Source: Candidatus Kuenenia hertensis (GTDB lineage: Bacteria; Planctomycetota; Brocadiia; Brocadiales; Brocadiaceae). Taken from it: a stretch of DNA of 36,155 nucleotides. Position 1 is the stretch's first letter, and each line of letters starts with the position of its first letter. The notes beneath the pieces are model-generated. The model saw only the letters and a program-made list of their open reading frames with translations. It had not been told where the DNA came from and made no database searches. The translations under genes were made by a program, and so were the position numbers. Where the stretch lies: positions 1 through 36,155 of the forward strand of contig SOET01000041.1 in the NCBI GenBank assembly GCA_021646465.1, given 5' to 3'. Below, in pieces: positions 106 through 31,725 of this stretch.

Positions 106-858
106 TAAAAGAGGAGGATTTCCAGGGAGTTGTATTCCGCTTAGGCTTATTTTTATCTGGTCGGGGTCGGCGCCCGGTTTTACTTGAAAGAGTTTTTCTA
201 CGTTGTTGCCGTATGCCTTGAGTTTTAATTCTATGCCCTTATAGACTTCTCCAAGATTAACCACATCATACGTTGGGATATTGGATTTCCACTTTTTCTG
301 GTCATTTCCCCTGAAATAATTTACCTTTGTTACGGATTTGGCTTCTCCCTTTATTTCCTTTACTTTTGCGCCAATGAGCGTTTCTTTTAAGGCAACTCCC
401 TGTAATTCGGAGTTTACGAGTTTTGAGTTATGAGTTTGGGAGTTGTTGAACGACTTATTATCCTTGATACATGATTCGGGATTGTCCTGTAGCTTGCATC
501 CGGCATTGTGTATCACATTGGGCGAATGCTTGAAAGACGCAATGCATTGCGTCTCTACATCTGAACTCTCAACTCTTGACTCCGCACTCTCAACTCCCAA
601 TGCTTTCGGCATTGAATACACTATCTCCCCGTCTTTTGTGATAAAGACTGTCCCACCAAAGGTGTTTGCATAATAGGCAACCTTTTTATCTGCCTGCCCT
701 TCATTGGCAATGAAAGGGATTTGGAGTTTTTTGATCTTTTGACTAACAATCTGACCAGAGGGTTTGTCTTTATTTTCCTGCGCAAATGAGGAAAACGCAA
801 AACCAAACAGCACTAAAAGCACTACCGAAAAGAGAAAAAAACGGTTCCTTTTTTTCAT
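76..858 (-). pseudogene. Truncated SBBP/DUF7948-type exported protein, invaded by repeats
   Basis: This 260-residue ORF begins with a signal peptide (MKKRNRFFLF, hydrophobic core to about residue 22, SFAQ cleavage region). Residues 40-87 and 154-240 resemble the N-terminal domain that precedes SBBP beta-propeller repeats in large surface proteins; NEGQ, VNYFRGND and VKPGADPDQIKISLSG look characteristic. Two things are odd. Residues about 88-153 are a low-complexity insert encoded by short direct repeats of the AACTC/GAGTT type and by a 20-bp perfect palindrome at 535-554. The C-terminus (about GNPPLLSPSVRGTGV) is encoded by a GC-rich hairpin repeat that supplies the stop, so the beta-propeller is missing. 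It is probably a decaying gene whose 3' part was cut off by repeat insertion. A weak ribosome site (GGGGACA) precedes the ATG at 858. Confidence 0.6.
535..554. repeat. 20-bp perfect palindrome inside a coding region
   Basis: AGACGCAATGCATTGCGTCT is its own reverse complement. A close relative with a four-base loop (AGAGACGCAT, agca, ATGCGTCTCT) lies at 31124-31147 in non-coding DNA, so this is a dispersed palindromic unit that has landed in an ORF. Confidence 0.8.
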
Positions 859-5871: not shown

Positions 5872-7245
5872 CTAAAGGGTTGTTCCGCTCCTGTTTGACA
5901 TACGTGTATGTAATTGAGACGATATCCTTTTATTTGCAGAAAAGGGAGCGGCCGTTTGGGCCTCCACTCTGAAATATTTCTTTTTCCTTGAGGTACTGTG
6001 CGTTTCCTTTTTCAAATCAGTCCTTTTCTTCGTAACCCTTTGCTGGTTCCTTTCATTTTTGCTGCGTATTATTTTTTGCTGTGTTGGCACAATATGTATT
6101 CCTTTATTTTTTAACGCCGGCCTGGAATAGTCGAAATTTTCCAAAGTATGCCGTTCGATGCGTGAACCAAGGATATGTTCTATGTTGCGCACCATTGCTT
6201 TATCATCTTCTGTTACCAGGGTAAAAGCATCTCCGTTACGCGCGGCACGGCCGGTTCTGCCAATGCGATGAACATATGCTTCCGGAGTATCAGGAATATC
6301 ATAATTAATAACGTGTGAAATCTGAGAGACATCTATTCCACGCGCGGCAATATCGGTTGCCACAAGTACCTGATAGACGCCTTTTCTAAAACCTCCCAAA
6401 GCCGCCTGCCGTTGTTGTTGTGACATATTCCCCTGAAGTGATGCGGCCCGGTATCCAGCCCTTACTAACCGTTGCCCCAAACTCTTTGCCCGGTACTTTG
6501 TGCGTGCAAAAATCAACACAGACTGAGTGTCAGTCTGATGCAATATTTCAAGGAGAAGAGGTATTTTAAGGTGCTGTTTCACCGGATATATGGCATGTTT
6601 TACCGTAGAAGCCGGAGAGGGTTTCCCAAATTGAACAATTGCAGGTTTTTTTAGCGCCTCATGCGCAAGAGATTTGATCTCATCCGGCATGGTAGCAGAA
6701 AAGAGTAATGTTTGCCGTTCATGCGGCAGACATTTCATTAATTTTTTGACATCCGGAAGAAACCCCATATCGAACATATGGTCTGCCTCATCGAGTACCA
6801 GCACCTCTATCCCGGACAGATCGATGGTTCTCTGTTTGACATGATCCAGAAGTCTTCCGGGGCACGCAACAACAATATCTATTCCGCTTTTGATTTTTTT
6901 AATCTGCTGAGTAATACTGACGCCTCCGTAAACAGTAGCGCTTCTTAATGTTGTTTTTGATCCGAGAATACTGAAATCCTGATGAACCTGCTCTGCCAGT
7001 TCCCGGGTTGGAACTACAACAAGCGCACGTATTTTACCGCGTTCACCTTCCGACAATCTTTGTAATATTGGCAATACAAATGCAGCTGTCTTGCCCGTGC
7101 CTGTCTGCGCCAAACCCATCACGTCGCTTCCCTTCAAAATCAGCGGAATTGCCTGTATCTGTATCGGCGTGGGGGTAACATACCCTGCCGTGGTAATACC
7201 TGCTGCAACGTTAAAATTAAAATTAAACGATTTAAAATCTTTCAT
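5872..7245 (-). CDS. rhlE: DEAD-box RNA helicase, RhlE-like
   Basis: A 457-residue DEAD-box helicase. Motifs: FxxFxF aromatic N-terminus, TPIQIQ Q motif, AQTGTGKT (46-53), PTRELAEQ, ACPGRLLD, DEAD (152-155), SATMPDE, VLIFARTK, TDIAARGIDV and HRIGRTGR. After the core comes a basic, poorly structured tail (KKRTDLKKE and RKKKYF), typical of RhlE-type proteins that act on ribosome assembly or the degradosome. The start is supported by AAGGAG five bases before the ATG. The C-terminus is rich in Arg, Lys, Ser and Thr. It differs clearly from the helicase at 1274-2491, so the two are paralogues rather than a recent duplication. Confidence 0.94.
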   Translation of the reverse strand: MKDFKSFNFNFNVAAGITTAGYVTPTPIQIQAIPLILKGSDVMGLAQTGTGKTAAFVLPILQRLSEGERGKIRALVVVPTRELAEQVHQDFSILGSKTTLRSATVYGGVSITQQIKKIKSGIDIVVACPGRLLDHVKQRTIDLSGIEVLVLDEADHMFDMGFLPDVKKLMKCLPHERQTLLFSATMPDEIKSLAHEALKKPAIVQFGKPSPASTVKHAIYPVKQHLKIPLLLEILHQTDTQSVLIFARTKYRAKSLGQRLVRAGYRAASLQGNMSQQQRQAALGGFRKGVYQVLVATDIAARGIDVSQISHVINYDIPDTPEAYVHRIGRTGRAARNGDAFTLVTEDDKAMVRNIEHILGSRIERHTLENFDYSRPALKNKGIHIVPTQQKIIRSKNERNQQRVTKKRTDLKKETHSTSRKKKYFRVEAQTAAPFSANKRISSQLHTRMSNRSGTTL

Positions 7246-7372
7246 ATACTCCTTCTTTCATAAAATATTAAAGGGAACAGTGTGTTTTTTGTTAATCCTT
7301 TCCTTTCAATGTAAAATAATCTATAATAAATTCGTAATTAGTTTAAATATATTATGTTTTAAAAAAAAACCC

Positions 7373-7687
7373 ATGTCTGATTGGATTCATATCGAAAAAG
7401 ACCCGAAACATTTTGCCAGGGAAAAACTGAAGGCCCAGGAAATGAGAAAAACCCAGTGGTGGTTTAATAAAATTTCCCGGGGAATATGCTTTTATTGCCA
7501 CGCAACGTTCTCCCCTGAAGAACTCACCATGGATCATGTGATACCCCTTTCGAGGGGAGGAAGAAGCACGAAAGGAAACATCGTTCCTTGTTGTAAGGAG
7601 TGTAATAACAGGAAAAAGTATTTAACTCCGGCGGAAATTGTATTAAACAAATTAAAGCAAGAACAGTCAACACAAGATAGAGACTGA
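7373..7687 (+). CDS. HNH endonuclease domain protein
   Basis: A 104-residue protein from the ATG at 7373; the longer upstream reading frame is antisense to the rhlE start and is not used. The C-terminal half is an HNH nuclease fold: zinc-binding CFYCH, then MDHVIPLSRGG with the DH pair, GNIVPCCKECNNRK with the second CxxC and the Asn, then KKYLTPAE. The N-terminal 40 residues (FAREKLKAQEMRKTQWW) are helical and basic. Small stand-alone HNH proteins of this type are common and often of unknown role (DNA repair, restriction or mobile DNA). A TATAAT at 7322-7327 may be its -10 box. It is transcribed divergently from rhlE. Confidence 0.88.
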   Translation: MSDWIHIEKDPKHFAREKLKAQEMRKTQWWFNKISRGICFYCHATFSPEELTMDHVIPLSRGGRSTKGNIVPCCKECNNRKKYLTPAEIVLNKLKQEQSTQDRD

Positions 7688-7779
7688 TCTTTATTGAAAT
7701 ACGATCTCCCGGAAATGGTGAATATATATGCCCGCCCGTTTAAAAATGGAGATAGACAACCGACACATCCTTCCTTGAT

Positions 7780-8160
7780 TTACGATTTCTGCTTTATTTC
7801 AATCAGGTTACCGGAAAAATCTTTAAGAAAATATACGGTTTTTTCTTTATGTTTTCCGATGATTACATCCACATTAAACCGCTTTGCCTTCTCTTCAATT
7901 TCCGGAAAACTATCGATCATCATACCGAAATGAATGAAATTTGGGTTAGCGTGTTGAAAATCTGACAGAAATACTTCAAGTTTTATCCCGGGTTTTTCAA
8001 AAACCAACACCTTGATCTCCTCAGAAAGAGAGAACAACTGCTCTGAAAGTTCCGGGGCTAAAAGTATCTCTCTTGTATTCTCAAGACCCAGGAAGTCCCG
8101 GTAAAATTTTAGCGCCTGACTTTCGTTATTATTTATAATACCAACGTGATTTAATTCCAT
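7780..8160 (-). CDS. Glyoxalase/bleomycin resistance (VOC) family protein
   Basis: A 126-residue single-module vicinal-oxygen-chelate protein. It starts MELNHVGI, with the first metal-ligand-type His, followed by the FYRDFLGLE helix-turn; the second half has FIHFGMMID and ends YFLKDFSGNLIEI, with the terminal Glu ligand. This is the usual beta-alpha-beta-beta-beta pattern repeated twice. VOC proteins include glyoxalase I, dioxygenases, epimerases and resistance proteins; nothing here identifies the substrate. It is convergent with the HNH gene. Confidence 0.85.
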   Translation of the reverse strand: MELNHVGIINNNESQALKFYRDFLGLENTREILLAPELSEQLFSLSEEIKVLVFEKPGIKLEVFLSDFQHANPNFIHFGMMIDSFPEIEEKAKRFNVDVIIGKHKEKTVYFLKDFSGNLIEIKQKS

Positions 8161-8229
8161 GACCTATTTTAGCGGGTAATTCTTCAATATGCAAGTCTTA
8201 CCATAATTAGTCAGAAAAGATTCAAAGAA

Positions 8230-8265
8230 ATAGTTTATCTGATTAATATAGTTTATCTGATTAAT
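8230..8265. repeat. 18-bp perfect tandem duplication
   Basis: The unit ATAGTTTATCTGATTAAT occurs twice head to tail (8230-8247 and 8248-8265). It lies in the 298-base gene-free stretch between the VOC gene and the exported NTF2-like gene. Confidence 0.85.
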
Positions 8266-8280
8266 AGCGATATATACATT

Positions 8281-8390
8281 CCCGCCTGTCGGCAGACAGG
8301 TCATGGCTAAATTGCCACGTATGAAACGTGAGGTACAAATCACAGACCTGAACCTGACGGGGAGGTTACTGGTTATCTGTTTTTTCATCC
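8281..8390. repeat. Probable dispersed repeat with hairpin
   Basis: The hairpin CCTGTC-GGCA-GACAGG (8285-8300) starts a GC-richer block that reads on the minus strand as a pseudo-peptide containing RFIRGNLAMTCLPTGG. Such LPTG-type translations are typical of multicopy intergenic repeats in some uncultured bacteria, so I treat the 74-codon ORF here as repeat DNA rather than a gene. No second copy is in the window, so this rests on general knowledge. Confidence 0.4.
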
Positions 8391-8458
8391 ATCTTCTGAA
8401 AACAGGAGATACAACTCTACCAACGGCATAACAGTTAACAGTAAAATAAGACGAAAAA

Positions 8459-9055
8459 TCATAGTATCTGTTTTTCCTGTTTCTTTACAAAATCATCGAT
8501 TTTTTTATTTATTATTTCAGCCTCATCCTTACCGAGGATCTTTTCTGCAAAGTCAGTGGCAATCTCTGCTGCCTGACCAGCAGAAACACCCTTCACCTCT
8601 GAAATTTTCCAGGTATCATCTTCCACCACCAGTTTGCACTCACCCAATCTTTCCTTCACAGGCAATCCGCCCTGTTCGAAAAGAAACTGTATCTCATCAG
8701 GATCATGGATTACCTGTAATGTTTCTTTCATATCCGGGACTATAGAGTGAAGCTTTACTATCGCTGTGTTATCGTTTACTGATGCACTTACTACCTCCTG
8801 TACAGTTGCACCATGAGCAAGGTCAATAACCCTGGTTAGCTTTGGTGGAGCTATCTCTTTTACATACTTTATAATTTCAAGCCAGTCAATAATGGTGGTA
8901 TCCGTTTTAGAAATGTAGGAATACGCCCTGTCATAATCATTATTTCTTACAGCGCTAAGATATTTTTCAACTACCATCCGGGGCGAGTCCTGTGCATAGC
9001 CATGTCCGGCAAAGGCAATTATTGCAACAAAAAGAATTAAAATCATTCTCTTCAT
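8459..9055 (-). CDS. Exported NTF2-like (DUF4878-type) protein
   Basis: From the ATG at 9055, preceded by GTGAGGGT, the product is 198 residues; upstream in-frame codons lack this support. It begins with a signal peptide (MKRMILILFVAIIAFAGHGYAQ). The mature part starts with PRMVVEKYLSAVRNNDYDRAYSY, the pattern of the NTF2-like/DUF4878 fold in which a helical segment precedes a curved sheet, and continues with strands such as NTAIVKLHSIV and DTWKISEVKGV. The last 40 residues form a charged helix. Function is unknown; members of this fold are usually periplasmic or outer-membrane-associated ligand-binding proteins. It is located 142 bp downstream of the topoisomerase operon. Confidence 0.75.
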   Translation of the reverse strand: MKRMILILFVAIIAFAGHGYAQDSPRMVVEKYLSAVRNNDYDRAYSYISKTDTTIIDWLEIIKYVKEIAPPKLTRVIDLAHGATVQEVVSASVNDNTAIVKLHSIVPDMKETLQVIHDPDEIQFLFEQGGLPVKERLGECKLVVEDDTWKISEVKGVSAGQAAEIATDFAEKILGKDEAEIINKKIDDFVKKQEKQIL

Positions 9056-9197
9056 ATTTTTACCCTCACAAAAGAAAATACGAATTAAAACACTTAAAAT
9101 TATGATAGAACAATTACACGCCGGCAGCAAGCAGAACTTAAAAGAATTCATCAACAACGAATACTTCGGCTTTGAGATTCGCATGAAGACTTATCAC

Positions 9198-11804
9198 TTA
9201 CGCATTATCATTAAACAGCTTCAACTGGCGGTAATTTTCTTTTGCGGCAGGTTCAGGAATCGATTCCGGTTTTTCGTTCTCAACCGCTTTTTCGTTCTCA
9301 ACCACCTTAACACCAACTACCTCATAACTGCTTAAACGATTGCCCCTGGCCTTCCATCCTTTAATATCCACAAGGCCATTCAACGGCACGACTTCACATC
9401 GTTTTTCTTTTTTGCGTCCAAAAAGGTACTGTATCTCCGCTTTAGGGTCGGTTTCGGTAGTAACGAGTGAAAGGATACTGCCCTCATTGTCCCCGATAAA
9501 TTGGAATACACGGCCAATAACTTCGGATTCCGGTTTAAAGCGTTTAACGTAATAATATTTTGACTCTCCGTCGAAATATACTGCGGTTATAATAGTTTCT
9601 GGATTATACTTTTCAACCGTAGCAAGTTTTTCCCCATCGTAATGATTCGTCAATTCAAAATTCGTTAATTCCAATGTGCCGTCTTTATATATCACCAGTA
9701 TCTTATTTTCTTCTTCAAACTTGCCCAAATATTTGCCTCGGCTCTCATTATTAAGCCTTCCAACGGTCTCGTCATACCAGATGTCATGCCCACCGAGAGT
9801 AGAGGTTCCGGCTTTTTTATGAATTATTTTGCGCACCGGATATTTTGTAAGTCTGTTTCCTATAGAGGCACGTCCCTTAACGGCAAGCCCGGCAAAATCA
9901 TAGTCAAATACCAGTTTACGGGCGGAGCTCTTCGGGCTCAAATTCACCGTAACCTCTTCTGATTCGCTGTTTGGGTTTGCGCTGAAATAGAGTACTCTTG
10001 AACCTTTTTTCCCCTGTGATAAATCGTAAGGTTTATCGTACGTAATAGAGGTGACGGCAAAACGTTTTACATAGGCAGGACCGTCTTTTCCATCCTGATA
10101 GATCATATGGTATGTCATCCGGGTATCATTTTTTTTCCAAACCTGAGCGTATATAATATCTTTTCCGACAAATGCCTTTTCCGATACCCTCGTAACCAGG
10201 AATGTACAATCAGACAGGAAAACAATTACATCGTCAATGTCAGAACAATCACAGACGTATTCTTCTTTCTTCAGTCCATAGCCGATAAAACCATCTTTCC
10301 TGTTCATATACAGTTTTTGATTGGCCATGGCAACCTGTGTAACCTGAATGGTTTCAAAATTACGGATTTGAGTTTTTCTCTCCCTGCCCTTACCATATTT
10401 TTTCATTAAACTTTCAAAATAGGCAATGGCGTAATTGGTGAGATGCTTTAAATCGTATTTTACCTGTTTGATTTCGCCTTCAAGCGTTTTTATGGCTTCA
10501 TCAGCCTTAAAGGAATCGAAACGGGATATTCGTTTGATTTTAATTTCGGTCAGTTTGACAATATCTTCCTCAGTTATTTCCCTTTGAAAATTTTTCTTAT
10601 ATGGTTTCAATCCTTTGTCAATAGCGGCAATCACCTCTTCCCATGTTTCACATTCTTCGATGTCCCGATAAATACGTTTTTCAATAAATATTTTTTCCAA
10701 CGAAGAAAAATGCCAGGATTCCTGCAGTTCTCCAAGTTTGATTTCCAACTCGCGCTTCAACAATCCAACAGTGTGTTCTGTAGATATTTTCAGGATTTCA
10801 TTTACACCGAGAAACTTTGGTTTCTCATCAATGATGACACAAGCATTTGGCGATATTGATATTTCACAATCAGTAAAGGCGTACAGTGCGTCAATGGTAA
10901 CATCAGGAGAAATATTCGGCGGAAGTTCAATAACAATCTCCACATCCTTCGCAGTATTGTCCACCACCCGTTTGATTTTGATCTTGCCGTTTTCCCCTGC
11001 TTTTACGATGGAATCCATAACGCTCGCCGTGGTAGTCGTGAAGGGAATGCTGCGGATAACAAGTGTTTTCTTATCCAAAATCTCTATTTTTGCGCGAACG
11101 CTGATTCTGCTACCCCGCAATCCTTCGTTATAATTACTAAAATCAGCCATTCCCCCGGTTGGAAAGTCCGGAAAGATATTTATTTCTTTCCCGCGAAGCG
11201 TATCTATTGAAGCTTCAAGCAACTCGATAAAATTGTGAGGCATAATCCTGGTGGCAAGACCCACTGCAATTCCTTCAGCGCCCTGAGCCAGCAACAATGG
11301 AAACTTCATTGGCAAAAGCACCGGTTCTTTCTTTCGGCCATCATAAGAAAGCTGCCATTCGGTAATTTGACTGTTAAACGCCACTTCAAGCGCGAACTTT
11401 GAAAGACGTGCTTCAATATATCGGGGAGCGGCGGCGGCGTCTCCCGTAGAAATATCACCCCAGTTCCCCTGCGTCTCAATGAGAAGGTCTTTTTGACCCA
11501 GATTAACCAGCGCTTCTCCGATAGCGGCATCACCATGAGGGTGGTATTGCATGGTATGACCAATCACATTGGCTGCTTTATTAAACCGGCCATCGTCCAT
11601 TTGTTTCATTGAATGCAGAATACGTCGCTGCACAGGCTTCAAACCATCAAGCAACGCAGGAACCGCCCTTTCTAATATTACGTAGGACGCATATTCCAGA
11701 AACCAGTTGCTGTACATTTCCGAAACATGCAAGGCTTCATGAATGGTGTTATTCCCGTCCGGGGAATCTTTGAGATTTTTCTTTATTTTATTTTTTACAG
11801 GCAT
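9198..11804 (-). CDS. parC: DNA topoisomerase IV subunit A (ParC/GyrA family)
   Basis: An 868-residue type IIA topoisomerase breakage-reunion subunit, which with ParE relaxes and decatenates DNA. The DNA-cleaving region is clear: LLDGLKPVQRRIL (51-63), YHPHGDAAIGEAL (87-99, the quinolone pocket), TQGNWGD and the active-site tyrosine Y129 in AAPRYIEARLSKFA. The GyrA-box beta-pinwheel is not canonical: there is no QRRGG[KR]G, and the C-terminal part (VYKDGTLELTNFELTNHYDG) resembles the ParC type seen in Bacteroidota. The residue at the usual quinolone-resistance serine is Ala (GDAAIG), as in Bacteroidota ParC. It starts 4 bp after the parE stop, so the two are translationally linked. The tail after about residue 835 is charged and repetitive (VVENEKAVENEKPES). 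Confidence 0.92.
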   Translation of the reverse strand: MPVKNKIKKNLKDSPDGNNTIHEALHVSEMYSNWFLEYASYVILERAVPALLDGLKPVQRRILHSMKQMDDGRFNKAANVIGHTMQYHPHGDAAIGEALVNLGQKDLLIETQGNWGDISTGDAAAAPRYIEARLSKFALEVAFNSQITEWQLSYDGRKKEPVLLPMKFPLLLAQGAEGIAVGLATRIMPHNFIELLEASIDTLRGKEINIFPDFPTGGMADFSNYNEGLRGSRISVRAKIEILDKKTLVIRSIPFTTTTASVMDSIVKAGENGKIKIKRVVDNTAKDVEIVIELPPNISPDVTIDALYAFTDCEISISPNACVIIDEKPKFLGVNEILKISTEHTVGLLKRELEIKLGELQESWHFSSLEKIFIEKRIYRDIEECETWEEVIAAIDKGLKPYKKNFQREITEEDIVKLTEIKIKRISRFDSFKADEAIKTLEGEIKQVKYDLKHLTNYAIAYFESLMKKYGKGRERKTQIRNFETIQVTQVAMANQKLYMNRKDGFIGYGLKKEEYVCDCSDIDDVIVFLSDCTFLVTRVSEKAFVGKDIIYAQVWKKNDTRMTYHMIYQDGKDGPAYVKRFAVTSITYDKPYDLSQGKKGSRVLYFSANPNSESEEVTVNLSPKSSARKLVFDYDFAGLAVKGRASIGNRLTKYPVRKIIHKKAGTSTLGGHDIWYDETVGRLNNESRGKYLGKFEEENKILVIYKDGTLELTNFELTNHYDGEKLATVEKYNPETIITAVYFDGESKYYYVKRFKPESEVIGRVFQFIGDNEGSILSLVTTETDPKAEIQYLFGRKKEKRCEVVPLNGLVDIKGWKARGNRLSSYEVVGVKVVENEKAVENEKPESIPEPAAKENYRQLKLFNDNA

Positions 11805-20390: not shown

Positions 20391-20639
20391 CTAATATTTC
20401 ATAAACTTCGTATTAAATAATACAATGTTGCGATAATCTCTTATCTTCCCAAGTACGGAAGCATCTTCATTTTTGATTCTGTTCAGCGCTTCTCCAATGA
20501 TCTCAAACTTTCTCTCAACGCCACTCCGAAGTAATTCGTCCTGTTCGTAATCCTCAAACTTCTTACCGTGCACAAATTGGAAAATAGCTAAAGCAGCTTC
20601 TCTGATGTCAAAGAGATACTTTAGGATTTCATCCTTCAT
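20391..20639 (-). pseudogene. hepT: HepT-like RNase toxin truncated before its catalytic motif
   Basis: The 82-residue frame is HepT/DUF86-like: KYLFDIREAALAIFQFVHGK, then FEDYEQDELLRSGVERKFEI and IGEALNRI, then KIRDYRNIV. In active HepT proteins the segment after the last helix contains RN(x)LVHxYxxxD, with the catalytic Arg and His. Here the frame passes into unrelated codons (LFNTKFMKY) and stops at 20391, so His and the C-terminal 25-30 residues are gone. The break lies immediately before the next antitoxin gene, suggesting replacement by recombination. It is 6 bp downstream of the mntA-like antitoxin. Confidence 0.75.
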
Positions 20640-20645
20640 AGATGG

Positions 20646-20939
20646 TTATTTTTTTTTTAATATATGGCGGCGAAAATAGGGATTTCTTAGCCCACTGATT
20701 GTGAGCAGATCAACTCCGCAATCAAAAGCATCCTCAAGCCGATGAAGCAGTCCGAAGTATCTTTTTGAAAGGTTCAAAGTGGGGTTCTCAAATTCAACGA
20801 GCAAATCTACATCACTCCCAGCAGTCACTTCTCCACGCGCAAGTGATCCAAAAACATCTAATTTTTTAACATGAAACTCCCTACAAGCCGGAATTGCAAT
20901 CTTTTTAATCTCTTCTAATGTCATCAGTTCGTCCTCCAC
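20646..20939 (-). CDS. mntA: MntA-like minimal nucleotidyltransferase antitoxin
   Basis: A 97-residue minimal nucleotidyltransferase with the signature GSLARGE followed by SDVDLLVEF (GSx10DxD) at about residues 32-50, so the catalytic pair of aspartates is present. In characterised HepT-MntA pairs the MntA antitoxin AMPylates a HepT tyrosine. The order mntA then hepT is the usual one. The Met at residue 6 is an alternative start. With HepT truncated, this gene is probably a leftover. Confidence 0.85.
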   Translation of the reverse strand: MEDELMTLEEIKKIAIPACREFHVKKLDVFGSLARGEVTAGSDVDLLVEFENPTLNLSKRYFGLLHRLEDAFDCGVDLLTISGLRNPYFRRHILKKK

Positions 20940-21143: not shown

Positions 21144-21168
21144 GCACAACCAGTGGATACGGTTGTGC
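21144..21168 (-). terminator. Terminator hairpin after the three-gene operon
   Basis: GCACAACC and GGTTGTGC arms flank a nine-base loop. On the minus strand the stem is followed by TTGTTTC, and on the plus strand by CTTTCTTT. It lies 57 bp beyond the stop of the FtsK-nuclease gene. Confidence 0.6.
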
Positions 21169-21225: not shown

Positions 21226-23040
21226 TCAGCAAATTTTAGCCAGTGACAGAAGCTCATCCTGTGAGATGTAAAGAGATTGTGCGCGTTCTATTCCTTTTCC
21301 CCGGTCACAAAGAAGGTCGCCTCTCCCTAACAATAATTCCCCACCGGCATGGTCAAGGATAATTTTTGAATTGGTGGCAGTGGTCACTTTCATGCAAATC
21401 TTTAACGGCAGATTGGCCTTTACGATGCCGGTAACAATGTTTCTGTCGGGTCTCTGCGTGGCAAGCACTACATGTATTCCTGCCGCCCGGCCTTTCGCCG
21501 CTAATCTGGCAACCAGTTTCTCAAATACCTCTTTCTCCTTTTTTCCCTGAAGCACCAGGTCTGCAAATTCATCAAAAAGAATAATATAAAAAGGGATATC
21601 TTTTCTTCCGGCTTTTATGCGATTGCTCAGGTCATTAAATCCCTCGTCCGCTAGCTGCTTATAGCGGTTCTCCATTTCATGTACCGCTTTCTCTAAACAG
21701 GCAATAGCTCCTGTAACGTCATAGATAACTGGTTCTGCCAAAAAAGGAGAGGTCTTTAATGAACCAAACGTCAAAATTTTGGGGTCGATAAGGGAGAGCC
21801 TGAGGGTTTCGGGACTGTTCCTTTTCAATAATGAGCCTACCAGCGATTTTAAAAATTCGCTTTTACCGCTACCGGCAGCCCCGGCAACCAGTGCATGAGC
21901 CATATTGGAATCTGCAAAATCAGCGAAAAGCATCTCGTTATTCACACCTACGCCTATTGGAAAAGAAACACAATCATTCTCTTTCGCATCATCCGGATTT
22001 TTTTCCCGGTCATTCCAATATACGACATCAGGCGTTTCTTTTGGTATATCAATTGACACATAACCCACAGAAGGTTCTATTCTGGGGGGCGAATTTAAAC
22101 TTAATGCAACCTGTAAATCGTCAGCCCTGTTCGCTAATGAAACAACCTTTACCCCGGAATCCGGTTTTATTTTATACCGCACCAGTTGAGGCGCTTCCTG
22201 TTTGTCAACTATTTCGATTTTAAGCCCGAAATCAGCATAGGTTTGTTTTATTATCACGGCAAATCCGTCTATGCCTTTTTTATTAACGCGTGCACATTTG
22301 CTCCTCTCCTTACCTGCCAACTCATGCAAAACCGGCAAAACACTATCATGAAAAAGTTCGGCAAGCTCTTTATGTGTTACAACAACTTCACGTAAATCCG
22401 GGGCATAATATTCAACGGCTCCGTTACATTTCATTTCAGGTTTCAGCTTTTTTAACAATTCTGCATAGATAGCCAGTTGCAAGAGATCGTGCTCCCTGTT
22501 ATCGCCTTTCGTAAGCTTGTAATCCACAATCTCAATGTTTCGGGCAGGATGTACCCTCACCAAATCTAATTGGCCGGAAACAAAAACGGAATGATCACCA
22601 ACCTTATACTGGATATCCTTTATGTGGAACTCATTCGTTATGTATATATCGTTCCAAGAGTGAAAATTGTTTGTCTGATCACGTAAGGTAACGGTACGGT
22701 CACAAAAGGCCTTTAATGCATTTGCAAGATAGTGCGCAGATTCTAATCTGTTATTATTCAGCACTTCGTTTATCTCACTCTCTGCAAATCTGGTATACAT
22801 TTCATCCCATATCAAATTCCTGTCTTTGAGGTTTAGGGTGATGGTGTTATTTTCCGGCAGTGACAGCCAGTCTAAAAACTTCTTCACAATGTTGTGGAAT
22901 TTAGTTCCGTAAACAGCTATTGAATTTGGAGGATGCAGAGGAGTTGTCTGAGGATTTTCACCGGCAAGCCATCGGTCTTTCCAATCCTTGTCCAGACAGG
23001 CATGTTTTAGTTCTGTTACCGTTATCGATTTGACTGCCAT
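21226..23040 (-). CDS. Cas4/RecB-like PD-(D/E)XK nuclease fused to an FtsK-type DNA translocase
   Basis: From the ATG at 23040 the product is 604 residues; the longer frame to 23097 uses a TTG and is not preferred. Residues 1-240 carry all RecB/Cas4 nuclease motifs: H49 in GTKFHNIV, D159 in GQLDLV, D173 and K175 in IVDYK, and Q188 and Y192 in QLAIYAELL. Residues about 260-345 resemble the FtsK alpha/beta region (IKPDSGVKVVSLANRADDLQ). The motor follows: Walker A GAAGSGKS (387-394), LIDPK (418-422), Walker B ILFDEFADL (487-495), VVLATQRPDRN (524-534), LLGRGDLL (570-577). FtsK's membrane segments and gamma DNA-reading domain are absent. The start overlaps the upstream ATPase gene by 19 bp, so translation is coupled. 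Nucleolytic processing coupled to DNA pumping is inferred; a cellular target is not known. Confidence 0.88.
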   Translation of the reverse strand: MAVKSITVTELKHACLDKDWKDRWLAGENPQTTPLHPPNSIAVYGTKFHNIVKKFLDWLSLPENNTITLNLKDRNLIWDEMYTRFAESEINEVLNNNRLESAHYLANALKAFCDRTVTLRDQTNNFHSWNDIYITNEFHIKDIQYKVGDHSVFVSGQLDLVRVHPARNIEIVDYKLTKGDNREHDLLQLAIYAELLKKLKPEMKCNGAVEYYAPDLREVVVTHKELAELFHDSVLPVLHELAGKERSKCARVNKKGIDGFAVIIKQTYADFGLKIEIVDKQEAPQLVRYKIKPDSGVKVVSLANRADDLQVALSLNSPPRIEPSVGYVSIDIPKETPDVVYWNDREKNPDDAKENDCVSFPIGVGVNNEMLFADFADSNMAHALVAGAAGSGKSEFLKSLVGSLLKRNSPETLRLSLIDPKILTFGSLKTSPFLAEPVIYDVTGAIACLEKAVHEMENRYKQLADEGFNDLSNRIKAGRKDIPFYIILFDEFADLVLQGKKEKEVFEKLVARLAAKGRAAGIHVVLATQRPDRNIVTGIVKANLPLKICMKVTTATNSKIILDHAGGELLLGRGDLLCDRGKGIERAQSLYISQDELLSLAKIC

Positions 23041-25061
23041 TGTAATAGGGTCATATGGGGACTTTGATAAACCTTTATTTGTGGAATTTTCGTACAAATA
23101 TCTAAAACCTTTTCTTTATCCAGTGATTTTGACAAACTCATGAGTAATTCATCGAAACTTAACACCTTTTCCTTTTTGATATATGCCTTAATCTCATTTG
23201 CAACACCTTCTGCCGGACTCATAGTATTTTCACCTTTTTTCACCCTTTCCTTTCCGGCAGAAAAACCACCACTAATTGTATCCCAAAACCACGTAAATTT
23301 TTTTCTTATAAATGCTAAAACCTCATCGCGTGAATACGGTATATCCCCTTCTACCGCATCTCTGTAAAGTTCATTAGCGGCATAGATATTTATCACCATA
23401 TCTTTCTTCAAATCTACTATATTGAAAAACTCATTTTTCGCCTCATTTATCTCAGTCCCTATTGTTTTCCATGTTGCTTTAGGTATCTTTGGCAAATCAA
23501 ATGTTCTTAACATCACTGCCTTCAATCCCTTTTGAGACGTTGCATATCTCTTCGCCTCCCTTACAATTGATCGCCATCTCATGCTATTCGCACCCGATTC
23601 AAATCCAAATATAAGAGAACGAGTATTGAATAACCAATGAATAGAAAAATATCCCTTTTCTGTTTTATATTTTTTTACCGTAACCCCGGCAAGTCCTTTA
23701 GACACTTCAAAGATCATCCAATACAAAATATCAGGATCAAACACATGCCTTTTTGGCTGTGATCTTATATCTTCCAAACTCTTCTCAAAATACTGTTCGA
23801 TGGGCGCTACTTTGACCTCTCTGTTTTGTTCAATATCCCATTGATCCCTGCATTTGTTTATAAAGTGGCGAATCCCTATTTGGGACCTGTCTTTAAATAA
23901 ATTATGTAACCATTTTTCATCAGCAAAAAGTTGCGCCTCTTTGCTGTCAATGTTAAAGAGACGCAGTCTTTGTTGAATAAGTTCTTTACCCTGTTCTTTG
24001 TTTATTCCTGCAAGTTCAAATCGTTTATTGAATCGATGCTTATGTGCTTCCTCCATAGACTCCAGGAGCGTCTTTTCCCATACATACTGATTTGCCGTTA
24101 CGACAGTCATTTGATTCGGACATGAGCTCACCAGGTTTTCAATTACGATCCCGAAAGACCTCACCAGTTCCGAATTCTTACCATAATTTTCCGTCTGATC
24201 AAAACAGAACAGAAACGGTCTGAAAAACCCTGCAAGATAGCAGAAATCAATGACTCTTTGTTTACAAAGCTCGTTCATTTCATCTGAAGTCATTTCCGGA
24301 AGCGACACATCCCTGCTCCTGATACCAACGGTCTTAGCCTCATTCCGGTCGATACATTCGCCTCTCAGCCATTCAAGACACGTTTCTCTGATTACAGCAT
24401 CGGACCTGTTATACATATACTGTAACAACACCTGTAGCCAGCTTAACGGGGAGGCGTTTAATGGTATTCCATTCGTTTTAAGCTCTTTGATAAATTGTGC
24501 CGTAAGATTGGCTATATTTGAAAAGACCCAATGAGCCTTTTCGGATTCACTCAAAAAATTATTCAGAAGTGAATAGTCAGAGGATGTACCGTTTGTCTTC
24601 TCCGCATTAATCTCCATGAAACCGCTTACACGCAATTGAGAGAGTAAAAATGCCACGATCCCGTGGGAAAAGACTTCAAGTTGCGTGGGTGTTTCATTAT
24701 TACTACGATCCGCAGAATCCAATTTTTCTGCAAAATCCAATTCCTGGACAATTTTCAAGAGGATCGATTTCCAGCAGGTTGAGTTGTTTTCAAAAGGCCT
24801 TATATAGACCAATGTCGCCTTTTGATTCAAGGCGTTAAAGAGCCTTCCAATCAAGTGCGACTTCCCATAACCAGGCTCTCCGGATGTAACGAGCCAGGCG
24901 TGTGTTTGACGTAATTTTCTGGGAAATGGAGATTCTGACAGGAGGTGAAATCTTTCAATAAGGGCCAGGAGTGATTTTTCATTGAGACTTGACACGCATG
25001 TCTTAATTGATCGTGGATCTTCAACGATATCATCTTCAAACGGATTTATCTGTACATCCAT
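23022..25061 (-). CDS. Large AAA/STAND-like ATPase of the three-gene operon
   Basis: A 679-residue cytoplasmic P-loop ATPase. It begins NPFEDDIVEDPRSI; Walker A is SGEPGYGKSHL (60-70), Walker B is FLFCFDQTE (283-291) and a sensor-1-like VVTANQYVW follows at 320-328. A RFNKRFEL-x-GIN segment near 343-354 looks like the arginine-finger and lid entry of Orc/Cdc6-type AAA ATPases. Residues about 400-600 match nothing I recognise; they contain an aromatic and basic stretch (FGFESGANSMRWRSIVREAK). The last 65 residues resemble a small winged-helix tail. It has a good ribosome site (GAGGT) before the ATG and starts 18 bp after the wHTH gene. Its likely role is an ATP switch or loader for the FtsK-nuclease partner, by analogy with ATPase-translocase pairs in other defence systems; this is inference. 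Confidence 0.82.
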   Translation of the reverse strand: MDVQINPFEDDIVEDPRSIKTCVSSLNEKSLLALIERFHLLSESPFPRKLRQTHAWLVTSGEPGYGKSHLIGRLFNALNQKATLVYIRPFENNSTCWKSILLKIVQELDFAEKLDSADRSNNETPTQLEVFSHGIVAFLLSQLRVSGFMEINAEKTNGTSSDYSLLNNFLSESEKAHWVFSNIANLTAQFIKELKTNGIPLNASPLSWLQVLLQYMYNRSDAVIRETCLEWLRGECIDRNEAKTVGIRSRDVSLPEMTSDEMNELCKQRVIDFCYLAGFFRPFLFCFDQTENYGKNSELVRSFGIVIENLVSSCPNQMTVVTANQYVWEKTLLESMEEAHKHRFNKRFELAGINKEQGKELIQQRLRLFNIDSKEAQLFADEKWLHNLFKDRSQIGIRHFINKCRDQWDIEQNREVKVAPIEQYFEKSLEDIRSQPKRHVFDPDILYWMIFEVSKGLAGVTVKKYKTEKGYFSIHWLFNTRSLIFGFESGANSMRWRSIVREAKRYATSQKGLKAVMLRTFDLPKIPKATWKTIGTEINEAKNEFFNIVDLKKDMVINIYAANELYRDAVEGDIPYSRDEVLAFIRKKFTWFWDTISGGFSAGKERVKKGENTMSPAEGVANEIKAYIKKEKVLSFDELLMSLSKSLDKEKVLDICTKIPQIKVYQSPHMTLLQWQSNR

Positions 25062-25079
25062 TTTTACCTCATCTATTTC

Positions 25080-25808
25080 CTAGAGAAAACGAATAAGCAG
25101 GTATGGTCTGCCATCCAAATATACTGCACCGGATCTTGTCTCTCCAGAAGAGAGAGACCAATCTCCCAGGCTGAAAACTGCCCGGCCGGCCCTCGATTCT
25201 TCGAGAAGAAAGGACTTCAGATATTCCATAGGGACTCCCAAATCCCGTTGCAGTTCATATATCTCTATATTTGAAAATCCTTTTTGTCTTTTAATCTTTT
25301 CGTATGACGTTAACACTTTGTTATGATTTATTTCCTCTTCGAACACCCGGCTTTCAGGTTGTAACCCCGAAAATGCTTCTGATAATACGTATGGTTCTAT
25401 TGAAGAAACATGCAGGAAATATGTTCCTCTTCCTATCTTTATCTTCAGTAATTTTTTTTCCTGGATCAAAATTTCGATCGCCTCATCTGCCTTTTCACGG
25501 ATGCATCCCGAAGGAAGTTTATTGCGTATCGTTGTCAAGGTAAAAGGTATTAACTCATTTTGTTTTTGTGGCATCCTGGTAATGCATTCTATCTCATTAT
25601 ACGCCCTCTCAAGGGGGTTATAATACGCCTTCAGGACATAACGCGGCCTTGCTTTACTGCCTAAATTCCTGATTTCCCTGTCTCTTAAAAGCTCCTGAAA
25701 TGCCTGCTCCGAATTTTTTGCAATCTTCAATTTTGATTTGCTTAATCCGTCAGGCCCTGCATCCCTGAGTTTTTGTAAAATGATTTCCTTTTGTGTTTCT
25801 ATGCCCAT
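25080..25808 (-). CDS. Winged-helix-like protein, first gene of the three-gene operon
   Basis: From the ATG at 25808 the product is 242 residues; a GTG at 25850 would add 14. Nothing clearly names the family. The N-terminal 60 residues (ETQKEIILQKLRDAGPDGLSK, then a second helix EQAFQELLRD) and a wing-like RPRYVLKAYY look like a winged-helix domain. A second unit (IREKADEAIEILIQEKKLLK, then GRGTYFLHV) and a third (FSNIEIYELQRDLGVPMEYL, then AVFSLGDWSLSS) repeat the helix-turn-wing pattern, suggesting tandem DNA-binding modules. It is the promoter-proximal gene and may also bind the palindrome at 25942-25959. A DNA-recognition or regulatory subunit is the best guess. Confidence 0.6.
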   Translation of the reverse strand: MGIETQKEIILQKLRDAGPDGLSKSKLKIAKNSEQAFQELLRDREIRNLGSKARPRYVLKAYYNPLERAYNEIECITRMPQKQNELIPFTLTTIRNKLPSGCIREKADEAIEILIQEKKLLKIKIGRGTYFLHVSSIEPYVLSEAFSGLQPESRVFEEEINHNKVLTSYEKIKRQKGFSNIEIYELQRDLGVPMEYLKSFLLEESRAGRAVFSLGDWSLSSGETRSGAVYLDGRPYLLIRFL

Positions 25809-25941
25809 AATCAACGATAGATGAAAGATGCTTACTCTGTAAATAACCACATAATACTATCTGATTAATTTATTTTCTATCATTTTCTATAAACTATGAA
25901 GTGCTTTTGTCGATTTAACTTGATCATATAGTTTCGTTCAC

Positions 25942-27246: not shown

Positions 27247-30156
27247 TTACTTTTCAATACTTTTCATTAATTCATATGCAATATTACCACTTACAATGCG
27301 CATGATGCTTTCTTCCGCATTATCGAAACTTAATAAATTTATACTGCCATACCAAACAATCCTTTGATCAATAATCGAGAATTTTTGATGTATATTAGAT
27401 TTTAACACTAAGTTAATTCCCATGTTTTTTAAGACATCAAAAATCATTTCTAAAGCCATCTTGCTTTTATTTTTAAAATCTTCATATGGCCTTGTTACAA
27501 TTGTTACCTTTACCTGTTTATCTACTACATTACTAAGATATTGAAGCATCTGTGAGACACGTTTATTGGTGATAAACGGACTGACAATCATGACTTCTCT
27601 TGATGCGCTTACTATATCATTACAGTAAACCGGGAAGAAACTATTCTTATCAAAGATACTATCTGAAGAGACTGCTGCTGCACTTTCGCCTTTTATTTTA
27701 TAGCCAATAGAGGCATATCCGTTTAATCGTTTACCATACATTTTTTCCGGCATTTTTACATGGACATCCACATAATCATATATTTGTACTTCATTTTTAT
27801 TTTCATATAATCTATGCAGCCTGCCTGCATATTGCTGTAATGTGCCTTTCCAGGAAATCGGCATTGCCAGAAAGAGGGTATCAAGCCTTGGTTCATCAAA
27901 TCCTTCGCCAATAAACTTACCCGTGGCAACTAAGGTTAATTGCCGACCTGAAGGCACTGCTGATATTTTATTTAATATCTCTCTGGTTCCCTTCAATCCC
28001 ATGCCACCCATCAGTGTGAACACATCAGGAATCCTTTCTCTCAACTTCTTTGCAAGCAATACAACATGTGCAGTTCTTTCTGATAACACCAGGGAATTTC
28101 TGCCATTTTCATAATTATTTACAACATCATCTACAATTAACTGATTACGTATTTCATCCCCTGCTATTTCTGCATATAATTCCTGAATGGTTATTTCTTT
28201 TGCATTGTTGTCAACCGGCATTCTGAAACTTGTGAATCTCGGGACAACATAATGATCGAACGGTCTTTTTTCTGCCTGATTTTTTGCGTCAACCCTGAAT
28301 CTTTCCGGCCCGCAATGCATAACTATTATCGGATGATGCCCATCCCTCCTTGTTGGAGTAGCAGTCAGTCCATATACGAATTTTGCGTTAACCTTTTTCA
28401 GTACCTGCTCAAAACTAAACGCCGGAACATGATGACACTCATCAACAATTACCATTCCATAGTTTTTCACACATTCCTTTACCTCACCCGAATGATATAA
28501 AGACTGTATGATTGCAACATCAATAATGGAGCTTGGAGTCTCTTTCCCCGCCCCTATTTGTCCAATCAAACCGATTTTCTTTTTCCTTCCGTGCTTTTTC
28601 TCATGAACGGGTATCTCTTCGTTAATCCTCAGAAATTCAGATAATCTGCTAATCCATTGCAACAAAAGCTGCTGTCTGTGCACCAATATCAGAGTATTTA
28701 CCTTTCTCCGGGCAATCATGTTCGCTGCTACAACTGTCTTCCCAAAGGCGGTGGTTGCTGTTAACACTCCATTGTCATGATTTAACAACTCGTTTATTAC
28801 TTCCTGCTGATCTTTTCTCAGGGTTCCAACAAACTCAACCTCGATGTTTCGACCATGATTTGTTTCATCTCTCCAATCAACATCGACCTTGAATTTACTA
28901 AAAAGATTGTGCATTTCATCTTCACAACCTCTGGGCAGGCACAAATACTCTTTTAAATCTTCAGAACATGATATTACCCTTGGTTTATTGTAAGTAGGCA
29001 TTCGCATTGCTTGCGCTTTATAAAAATCAGGATTTTTGAAAGCAGCCAATCGTTTCAAAGCATTTAAAGCCCTTTGCGAAAATCCATCTTTAGGCAGATA
29101 CAGCATACCTGCTTTTACAATTCCGACTCTTTTTGGAAAATCGAGTTTCGTCAATCTAACCCTGTTTGTTTTCCAGGTATTTTGAACTTCATCGCCATAT
29201 TCCATTAATTCACCTAATTCATTACCCGTATATAAACGGGTTATTAAAAACTCTATATGATCTTCAGAAAGTTTGTTTACTTTACTTAAATATTCCCACT
29301 GGTCTGCATAAGGCTCGAAGTTTTCATCAATAAAAATACTATTGCCATTTTTTCTTGCATCCATCTGCAGCGGCAGTGCAATCAGATTTCCAAAACCACC
29401 CTTGGGCATTGTATCCTGGTTAGGAAAAAATCTGTCGTATGACTTGAAATTTATCTCGTGCCTTTTATTCATGGCATAGGTAAGTAATGCGGTTCCAAAT
29501 TTTCGCGCCAAAGCTGATGGTACTTTATCTTCAAAGAAAAACCAGATATGGGCCCCGTTACCAGACCTTGAACGTTCAACTGCATACGAAATCTCAAATT
29601 CGTTGCACACCCCTCTCAATAGAGAAACATCTTCTTGCCAGCCAGCATCATCAAAATCAATCGCCAGAAAATAACACATTTCATCCAAACACATAGGGTA
29701 TATGCCAGCCACCATATTCCCTCTCAGATGGTTTTCTACAACCTTTTCATCAAATTTCGCATATGACTTCTGAGAACACGCAGAACACTTTATCTTTGGT
29801 TTATGACATACACCCGGATTCCATTCATTCAGGCAAACTGGTGTGTATCCTGACTTTGCCGCTTTATTTTCCCATCGTTTGGCATATACATCATCTCTGC
29901 CCCTAAAAAGAGACATAAATAAATCGATCTTGTCCTTATTTTCAGAATAGTTATTGAGCTTGTTGTTTAATTCCTCAGTGGTATTGTGTTTATCTGAGAT
30001 TTGAGTTTGAGTACTTCCTGTGTTAATTTCATTGATAACAATCTCCTCTGGTTCGGAAATACCAAGTTGCGACTTTAATCTTTTTATCACAGTTTTTAAT
30101 TCGATGTTTTCATCAAGCAGAGTCTGGTATTTTGTATATAATTCCTCATAATTCAT
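27247..30156 (-). CDS. TOTE-type primase domain, SF2 helicase and phospholipase D fusion
   Basis: From the ATG at 30156 the product is 969 residues; the frame extends to 30234 without support. Residues 1-30 look like a coiled coil (YTKYQTLLDENIELKTVIKR). Residues 78-300 resemble the archaeo-eukaryotic primase domain of TOTE conflict systems: FRGRDDVYAKRWEN, a cysteine cluster (CHKPKIKCSAC, 117-127), FLAIDFDD (163-170) with the catalytic Asp pair, SGNGAHIWFFF (198-208) and NLIALPLQ. Residues 445-800 are a superfamily 2 helicase: ATTAFGKT (467-474), VDECHH (571-576), LTATPTRRDG, LVATGKFIGEGFDEP and QQYAGRLHR. The C-terminus is phospholipase D-like with HQKFSIID (923-930) and WYGSINLL. Proteins of this layout occur scattered in bacteria, often with defence or mobile genes. 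It is oriented like the three-gene operon but separated by two plus-strand genes. Confidence 0.87.
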   Translation of the reverse strand: MNYEELYTKYQTLLDENIELKTVIKRLKSQLGISEPEEIVINEINTGSTQTQISDKHNTTEELNNKLNNYSENKDKIDLFMSLFRGRDDVYAKRWENKAAKSGYTPVCLNEWNPGVCHKPKIKCSACSQKSYAKFDEKVVENHLRGNMVAGIYPMCLDEMCYFLAIDFDDAGWQEDVSLLRGVCNEFEISYAVERSRSGNGAHIWFFFEDKVPSALARKFGTALLTYAMNKRHEINFKSYDRFFPNQDTMPKGGFGNLIALPLQMDARKNGNSIFIDENFEPYADQWEYLSKVNKLSEDHIEFLITRLYTGNELGELMEYGDEVQNTWKTNRVRLTKLDFPKRVGIVKAGMLYLPKDGFSQRALNALKRLAAFKNPDFYKAQAMRMPTYNKPRVISCSEDLKEYLCLPRGCEDEMHNLFSKFKVDVDWRDETNHGRNIEVEFVGTLRKDQQEVINELLNHDNGVLTATTAFGKTVVAANMIARRKVNTLILVHRQQLLLQWISRLSEFLRINEEIPVHEKKHGRKKKIGLIGQIGAGKETPSSIIDVAIIQSLYHSGEVKECVKNYGMVIVDECHHVPAFSFEQVLKKVNAKFVYGLTATPTRRDGHHPIIVMHCGPERFRVDAKNQAEKRPFDHYVVPRFTSFRMPVDNNAKEITIQELYAEIAGDEIRNQLIVDDVVNNYENGRNSLVLSERTAHVVLLAKKLRERIPDVFTLMGGMGLKGTREILNKISAVPSGRQLTLVATGKFIGEGFDEPRLDTLFLAMPISWKGTLQQYAGRLHRLYENKNEVQIYDYVDVHVKMPEKMYGKRLNGYASIGYKIKGESAAAVSSDSIFDKNSFFPVYCNDIVSASREVMIVSPFITNKRVSQMLQYLSNVVDKQVKVTIVTRPYEDFKNKSKMALEMIFDVLKNMGINLVLKSNIHQKFSIIDQRIVWYGSINLLSFDNAEESIMRIVSGNIAYELMKSIEK

Positions 30157-30212
30157 AATTATTTCTCGTGGAGTACACACATATATTAAATATTCGGAGG
30201 TGCTATACGTTT

Positions 30213-30721
30213 TCAGTTCGTGCTTTGGCAGCAAAATGATAAAGATGTTTCCGTCTTAACAAGAATAATCAGAAAGTCCGATGCAATTCTCGCTATGCCA
30301 CGGAAGATGCGGATACCGGATGAGATCTTTTTACCGGAAAGTTTGTCTCTCTTTGACAGGACATTACTGAGGAAATTGATTGCGCCTTCAACATCGTCCT
30401 GAAGATAAAACGTCGATACGCTCTGTATGCCTTCTTGTATCGCCAGTAGACCTTCTATGATTAATGCGACATGTCACCTTCATTGCCCGCAGATATATCT
30501 TCCTCAAGGCGGTTGATCACACAGGGTACGAGGAACACCAATCGGTCAAGACCGGGCAAACGACCGATACCTTCCCTCTGGTCATCCGGATCATGGGAAA
30601 TACTTTCATCTGCATTGCGGATGAAATCATCCAATTCGGTAAAAACATCCCTGGTTTTGGATATTTCAGCAAGAAGCTGTTTCCGCCCCGCCATGTTTTG
30701 TCTATTCATTTTTTTGCGCAC
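30213..30721 (-). pseudogene. Unrecognised gene split by a frameshift
   Basis: Two minus-strand frames abut. The first (30461-30721, GTG start, or ATG at 30709) gives MNRQNMAGRKQLLAEISKTR onwards and ends EEDISAGNEGDMSH. The second is open from 30473 to a stop at 30213 with no good start: ALIIEGLLAIQEGIQSVSTF, then YLQDDVEGAINFLSNVLSKR and GIRIFRGIARIAS. Together they would make one mostly helical protein of about 170 residues if a single frameshift occurred near 30470. I do not recognise the family. The upstream end runs into the miniature element at 30718-30906, so the original N-terminus may also be lost. Confidence 0.45.
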
Positions 30722-31510: not shown

Positions 31511-31725
31511 TGTAACACTTTAGTTTTTTGAAAAACTATCAAGGCAAAGCCTTGTGCTGATTTCGTCCTGGAGGGGCGAATGAAGATTGTGGATAATCAA
31601 TCGTCCCTACGGGACTGTATTTCTGTTTGGTAAAAATACAGGCAATAAATTGCCTGTCTATTGCCTCACGTCCCTACCGGAACTTAAAAAGCACAACTAA
31701 TTTTTCAAAAAACCAAATTGTTACA
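31511..31725. mobile_element. Nested 215-bp inverted-repeat element
   Basis: Imperfect 28-bp terminal inverted repeats: 31511-31538 starts TGTAACACTTTAGTTTTTTG and 31698-31725 is its inverse, with about four mismatches. Inside are small hairpins: CAGGCAA-TAAA-TTGCCTG (about 31640-31657) and GTCCC-TAC-GGGAC. It sits wholly inside the 601-bp element, so it inserted later or was carried along. Confidence 0.55.

Follow-up and report, generated by a model that had tools for sequence, protein, structure and literature searches.

A winged-helix, Orc/Cdc6-like ATPase and nuclease-FtsK gene trio as a probable counter-invader operon of the predicted HerA/FtsK capture class

In 2024, Rakesh, Aravind and Krishnan predicted in silico a class of Orc/Cdc6-linked 'HerA/FtsK capture systems' (PMC10853773). 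As set out in the main text of that work, the class combines an Orc/Cdc6 ATPase, whose core and C-terminal wHTH are separated by an inactive REase, with an active REase from one of two REase families and a HerA/FtsK motor, sometimes accompanied by FtsK-alpha; a subset also has a separate protein of 2-4 wHTH, related to DndG, SspB and FokI. The theme was later extended to BREX-related capture (BRC) systems, which likewise join a HerA/FtsK translocase, an Orc/Cdc6 AAA+ protein and a wHTH DNA-binding module (PMC12839542, 2026). Partly similar sets are found in DndFGH, with a wHTH protein (DndG), a P-loop protein (DndF) and a REase joined to HerA/FtsK (DndH), in SspFGH, with a Walker-A protein and a protein of C-terminal FtsK similarity, and in HerA-nuclease pairs (HerA-NurA and anti-phage complexes), which bring together a hexameric-type DNA motor and a nuclease. 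No experimental test of the capture class was found in the literature searched, preprints and many journals lying beyond that search.

We have analysed a stretch of 36,155 nucleotides (hereafter the window), contig C39 of the 4.17-Mb genome of Candidatus Kuenenia hertensis, in which three adjacent genes, here called A, B and C, span 4.6 kb (Table 1). As the preliminary description had read them, these are three joined minus-strand genes with an 18-bp gap between A and B and a 19-bp overlap between B and C, through which the translation of B and C may be coupled. Alternative starts are open for A, at a GTG at 25850, and for C, at an upstream TTG. The same description had taken the set for an undescribed system, which no longer holds, since the class predicted in 2024 has, as far as its main text gives it, a matching domain set.

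Table 1. Positions of the trio, its domains and associated features (window coordinates, except for L035)
Feature	Residues	Position	Strand	Basis or remark
Gene A	242 aa from ATG	25080-25808	minus	ORF
Gene B	679 aa	23022-25061	minus	ORF
Gene C	604 aa from ATG	21226-23040	minus	ORF
B/C overlap, 19 bp		23022-23040	minus	kept at relatives' loci
A, three winged helices	about 1-62, 64-145, 158-242			model
B, Walker A GEPGYGKS	61-68	24858-24881	minus	sequence
B, Walker B region FCFDQTE	285-291	24189-24209	minus	invariant in 33 homologues
B, inserted domain	415-600	23262-23819	minus	model secondary structure
B, C-terminal winged helix	612-679	23025-23228	minus	model
C, nuclease domain	1-240	22321-23040	minus	PDDEXK_1
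C, FtsK-alpha and FtsK motor	235-333 and 358-531	21448-22338	minus	Pfam
Hairpin 3' of C, possible weak terminator		21144-21168	minus	-15.2 kcal/mol
HepT-like and MNT nucleotidyltransferase pair		20391-20939	minus
Large TOTE-type protein		27247-30234	minus
L035, B-STAS/GHKL-like fusion and downstream		69-2882 and 2904-3798		small genes downstream; by eye

The product of gene A, which has no family match in Pfam, is modelled by AlphaFold2 as three winged helices with a mean pLDDT of 92.9, bearing out its earlier description as a wHTH-like protein. Each part matches winged helices in a fold search (e.g., Z 8-9), and the closest fold to the full-length protein is that of the tandem winged helices of the RNA polymerase III subunit RPC6. 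DNA binding by A is presumed from this model. DndG, SspB and FokI are not among the fold matches of A, an absence that excludes nothing.

Only sub-threshold AAA matches were obtained for B in Pfam. In its model (pLDDT 88.1, pTM 0.83), however, residues 1-414 are an Orc/Cdc6/TnsC-like AAA+ ATPase, the best fold matches being ORC (Z 14.2), TnsC (13.5) and Cdc6 (13.4), followed by NSF-type AAA+ proteins (12.5); the Orc/Cdc6-family ATPase of the capture class is thus present as far as the predicted fold goes. Both motifs by which B had been called an ATPase, GEPGYGKS and CFDQTE, are in place, and G66, K67 and S68 of Walker A are, like the Walker B stretch, invariant across 33 B homologues. The inserted domain follows a helix and strand order like that of PD-(D/E)XK proteins, with W448, W476, F485, E488, R495, W496 and R519 conserved, but no D/(D/E)xK set is conserved, a complete catalytic motif is missing, and no sequence link to the nuclease of C was found. 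By predicted topology only, the domain is a candidate for the inactive REase of the capture class, whose position and element order it fits. The last domain of B is predicted to run helix-helix-helix-strand-strand wing, as would suit the C-terminal wHTH of the class ATPase. This domain is missing in homologues that lack C or have B fused to C, and this pattern suggests, short of proof, that C docks on it.

For C, Pfam matched PDDEXK_1 (7.5e-12), FtsK_alpha (1.9e-10) and FtsK_SpoIIIE (3.2e-37), in agreement with the Cas4/RecB-like nuclease fused to an FtsK motor that had been described. With H49, E137, D159, D173, K175, Q188 and Y192 conserved to 90% or more across 29 homologues, C is apparently an active RecB/Cas4-like PD-(D/E)XK nuclease, and as such it fits the active REase of the capture class. 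The motor of the class is represented by the FtsK-alpha and FtsK parts of C, and by a HerA-like motor in three relatives (L039, L043 and L055); A, with its three modelled wHTH, falls within the 2-4 of the separate protein. The trio and the class have in common an Orc/Cdc6 ATPase, the position of an inserted domain, a C-terminal wHTH, an apparently active REase, a motor and a multi-wHTH protein, and none of the features given in the main text of PMC10853773 speaks against membership. That main text mentions neither the constant gene order A-B-C nor a 19-bp overlap nor the taxon of the window, although its supplement may list the same loci. On the other hand, BRC systems (PMC12839542) have PglZ and a STAND NTPase, often with GNAT/TGT, none of which is seen in the trio, and the trio differs from HerA-nuclease pairs in that its nuclease is fused to FtsK-alpha/FtsK and stands alongside an Orc-like ATPase and a wHTH protein.

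The expectation that the three genes travel together was borne out across genomes. A genome-contig scan with the single B protein gave zero matches, but a second scan, with a three-sequence B alignment run over 84,980 species genomes, yielded 40 loci, including once more that of G036 (see below), which span Planctomycetota, Desulfobacterota, Nitrospirota, Nitrospinota, Verrucomicrobiota, Acidobacteriota and Proteobacteria. Gene B is directly preceded by A in 38 of the 40, the remaining two being cut at the contig start, and C is downstream of B or fused to it in 31; the order A-B-C is kept in nearly all intact loci of seven phyla or more. Among these 31, C is a separate nuclease-FtsK gene in 23, the nuclease with a HerA-like motor in the three loci named above, the nuclease part alone in two (L031 and L032), and part of a B-C fusion in three (L048, L052 and L057, of which L057 lacks the nuclease). 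As for the other nine, L041, L061 and L063 stop at contig ends and L062 and L064 are broken; L037, L050 and L054 hold A and B without C, and in L035, from a Desulfobacterales bacterium, B appears by eye to be fused to a STAS/GHKL-like part with no C after it. Of the 28 loci where C is a separate gene, 16 share the 19-bp overlap, as does G010. Since the loci with a HerA-like motor fall into a single clade in the tree of B (100/98), the FtsK motor was probably exchanged for a HerA-like one once. Among the strains with homologues are Rhodoplanes elegans DSM 11907, Rhodoplanes tepidamans DSM 9987 and Bradyrhizobium sp. SSBR45G; the Rhodoplanes elegans trio, a mesophilic version, lies at 7189-12031 of L042. 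Altogether, an arrangement found again in about 30 other genomes is not due to chance: the trio is one conserved unit, and the proposal that a protein binding DNA, an ATPase and a motor-borne nuclease act as one functional unit is supported by the conserved order, the fusions and the apparent joint transfer.

More remote relatives show further arrangements. In G400, a remote relative of B is flanked by A and C in the same order, and the planctomycete G084 encodes a protein of 1708 residues (L020, 4153-10367) made of a B-like ATPase, two Cas4-like nuclease stretches and a HerA-like motor; the gene upstream of the latter ends, by eye, in a winged helix. Two other planctomycete contigs (L022, 6161-9872, and L024, about 6800-10039) carry a remote A-B-like pair, near which a nuclease-motor gene was not found, and which is possibly an older two-gene form.

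Within the closer relatives the distribution is patchy. Counting that of the window itself, three of the 59 genomes searched have B, which was absent from both genomes of the same genus; across 392 genomes from the phylum, A matched strongly in exactly the three genomes that have B, and remote B relatives came from five further ones, G400 and G084 among them. Homologous trios lie in G010, of the same family, and G036, of the same order. This patchiness argues against a housekeeping role, for which a locus conserved in all relatives would have been expected. Moreover, the window and G010, which belongs to another genus, are 83.1% identical in DNA over 21229-25811, that is, over the three genes and not beyond, compared with 76.1% between their topoisomerase genes, and core genes within the genus of the window reach 79-87%. 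The higher identity of the trio fits lateral transfer, with two core regions as a thin baseline. Pyruvate kinase (51%) as the sole baseline was misleading, topoisomerase giving 79%, and DNA identity was therefore taken instead. In the left flank, similarity to the same-genus genomes stops at 15757 (G001) or 17514 (G002); proteins of the right flank were not found in these two genomes, so no empty site is definable.

The patchiness, the apparent transfer as a unit, the swapping of parts, the nuclease placed on a motor and the argument published for the class make defence the best reading, and a defence function is plausible. We therefore regard the trio as, probably, a compact operon against invaders that moves laterally and belongs to the predicted class of Orc/Cdc6-linked 'HerA/FtsK capture' systems. 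In such an operon, the three winged helices of A would bind DNA, some feature of the invader, or both, and the Orc/Cdc6-like B would assemble with ATP on the A-bound DNA, as a loader or a licensing switch. The C-terminal winged helix of B would dock C, whose FtsK motor would pump the captured DNA past its own RecB-like nuclease, to be cut there; we infer, in short, that A recognises, B loads, and C pumps and cuts. A modification gene in constant linkage with the trio, by which self DNA might be spared, was not seen. What was already known is the class as a computer prediction, to which this locus adds a conserved and well-anchored trio with, probably, a counter-invader role. The fixed order, the small size of 4.6 kb, the conserved catalytic residues and the named strains anchor that predicted class and make defence by an Orc-like ATPase with a captured FtsK directly testable. 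The trio is also a candidate immune system for a relative of anammox bacteria, and may illustrate the reuse of housekeeping DNA motors in conflict.

A tentative alternative is that A and B form a constant core for DNA sensing and loading, in a distinct and self-contained system where the C-terminal winged helix of B docks exchangeable effectors. On this proposal, the effectors would be the nuclease-FtsK, nuclease-HerA and nuclease-alone forms of C, and even the STAS/GHKL-like part of L035.

The genomic company of the trio bears on defence in both directions. The defence island previously proposed around it holds for this window, where the TOTE-type protein unites an AEP-TOTE primase domain (4.4e-105) with superfamily-2 helicase and PLD nuclease parts, and where a HepT/MNT pair lies on the other side; the HepT-like ORF spans half of its family (1-62 of 120) and so looks like a remnant. 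The TOTE-type protein is 83% identical in G010, where it is located elsewhere, and its gene is patchy in relatives, of which G020, G011 and G046 hold broken copies. In the Verrucomicrobia bacterium LW23, the trio (L055, 10010-17002) lies directly upstream of the type I-G CRISPR genes Cas3g, Cas8g and Cas7g. These single cases of defence company count for a defence role. As a general rule, the island does not hold: PADLOC matches at 1e-10, counted as families and not as distinct genes, were no commoner among 111 neighbours of the relatives than among 90 random planctomycete genes, a control drawn from fewer phyla, with a handful in both and several of them generic (ClpB-like DolB; mad2, mad3). 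This lack of an excess, the mostly ordinary genes next to the relatives and the three loci with A and B but without C count against defence. Ordinary neighbours such as ruvB beside L033 would rather suit an accessory module of DNA repair or chromosome maintenance, in which an Orc-like loader and a nuclease-translocase act on host breaks or stalled forks, comparable to end resection by HerA-NurA; a RecB-like nuclease and an FtsK motor with FtsK-alpha, as in cellular FtsK, would be equally at home there. We nevertheless judge such a module unlikely, given a distribution that is patchy even inside the genus and the family, the motor swaps, the loss of C and the transfer as a unit.

TnsC/Orc-like folds act in transposition and replication, and FtsK-type motors in transfer. 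The match of the ATPase part of B to such folds could accordingly speak for a part of a mobile element, serving transposition, plasmid maintenance or DNA transfer and not defence. This is quite improbable, as no relaxase, transposase or replication gene emerged as a consistent neighbour, B had no match in phage records or in a scan of viral contigs, the DNA similarity between the window and G010 ends at the gene borders, and on plasmids just one organism had a fragment of B, near IS6. That fragment, on a plasmid of Methylosinus trichosporium (L012, 7869-8735), lies beside IS6 transposases and near rtcR/rtcB, with neither A nor C.

The best PADLOC label for C, SspH (7.3e-54), proved to be generic, since the alignment is confined to the FtsK part and the housekeeping FtsK of the same genome matches SspH better (1.1e-64), a control that ruled out membership of C in SspFGH. 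A phosphorothioate restriction module of the SspFGH or DndFGH type, which this label and the similar Walker-A and FtsK-like architecture might recall, is accordingly dismissed as extremely unlikely: neither A nor B matched SspF or SspG up to E 1, the Dnd models matched none of A, B and C, the published description makes DndF a P-loop kinase and gives DndH about 1700 residues and eight domains, compared with the 604 residues of C, and SspFGH is linked to phosphorothioation genes, none of which is seen beside the trio.

Regarding local signals, the promoter-operator suggested at the start of the operon is not supported, with 8 promoter-like sites observed and a mean of 14.7 in shuffled sequences, that is, fewer than in the shuffles. 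The terminator suggested at its end fared better in part: the hairpin after C, folded with four flanking bases for the energy in Table 1, makes it plausible, but its T tail is weak and the consensus scan for terminators does not list it. Further to the right, a dispersed repeat of about 26 bases at 31511-31539 has several copies, on both strands, in same-genus genomes (L069 and L071).
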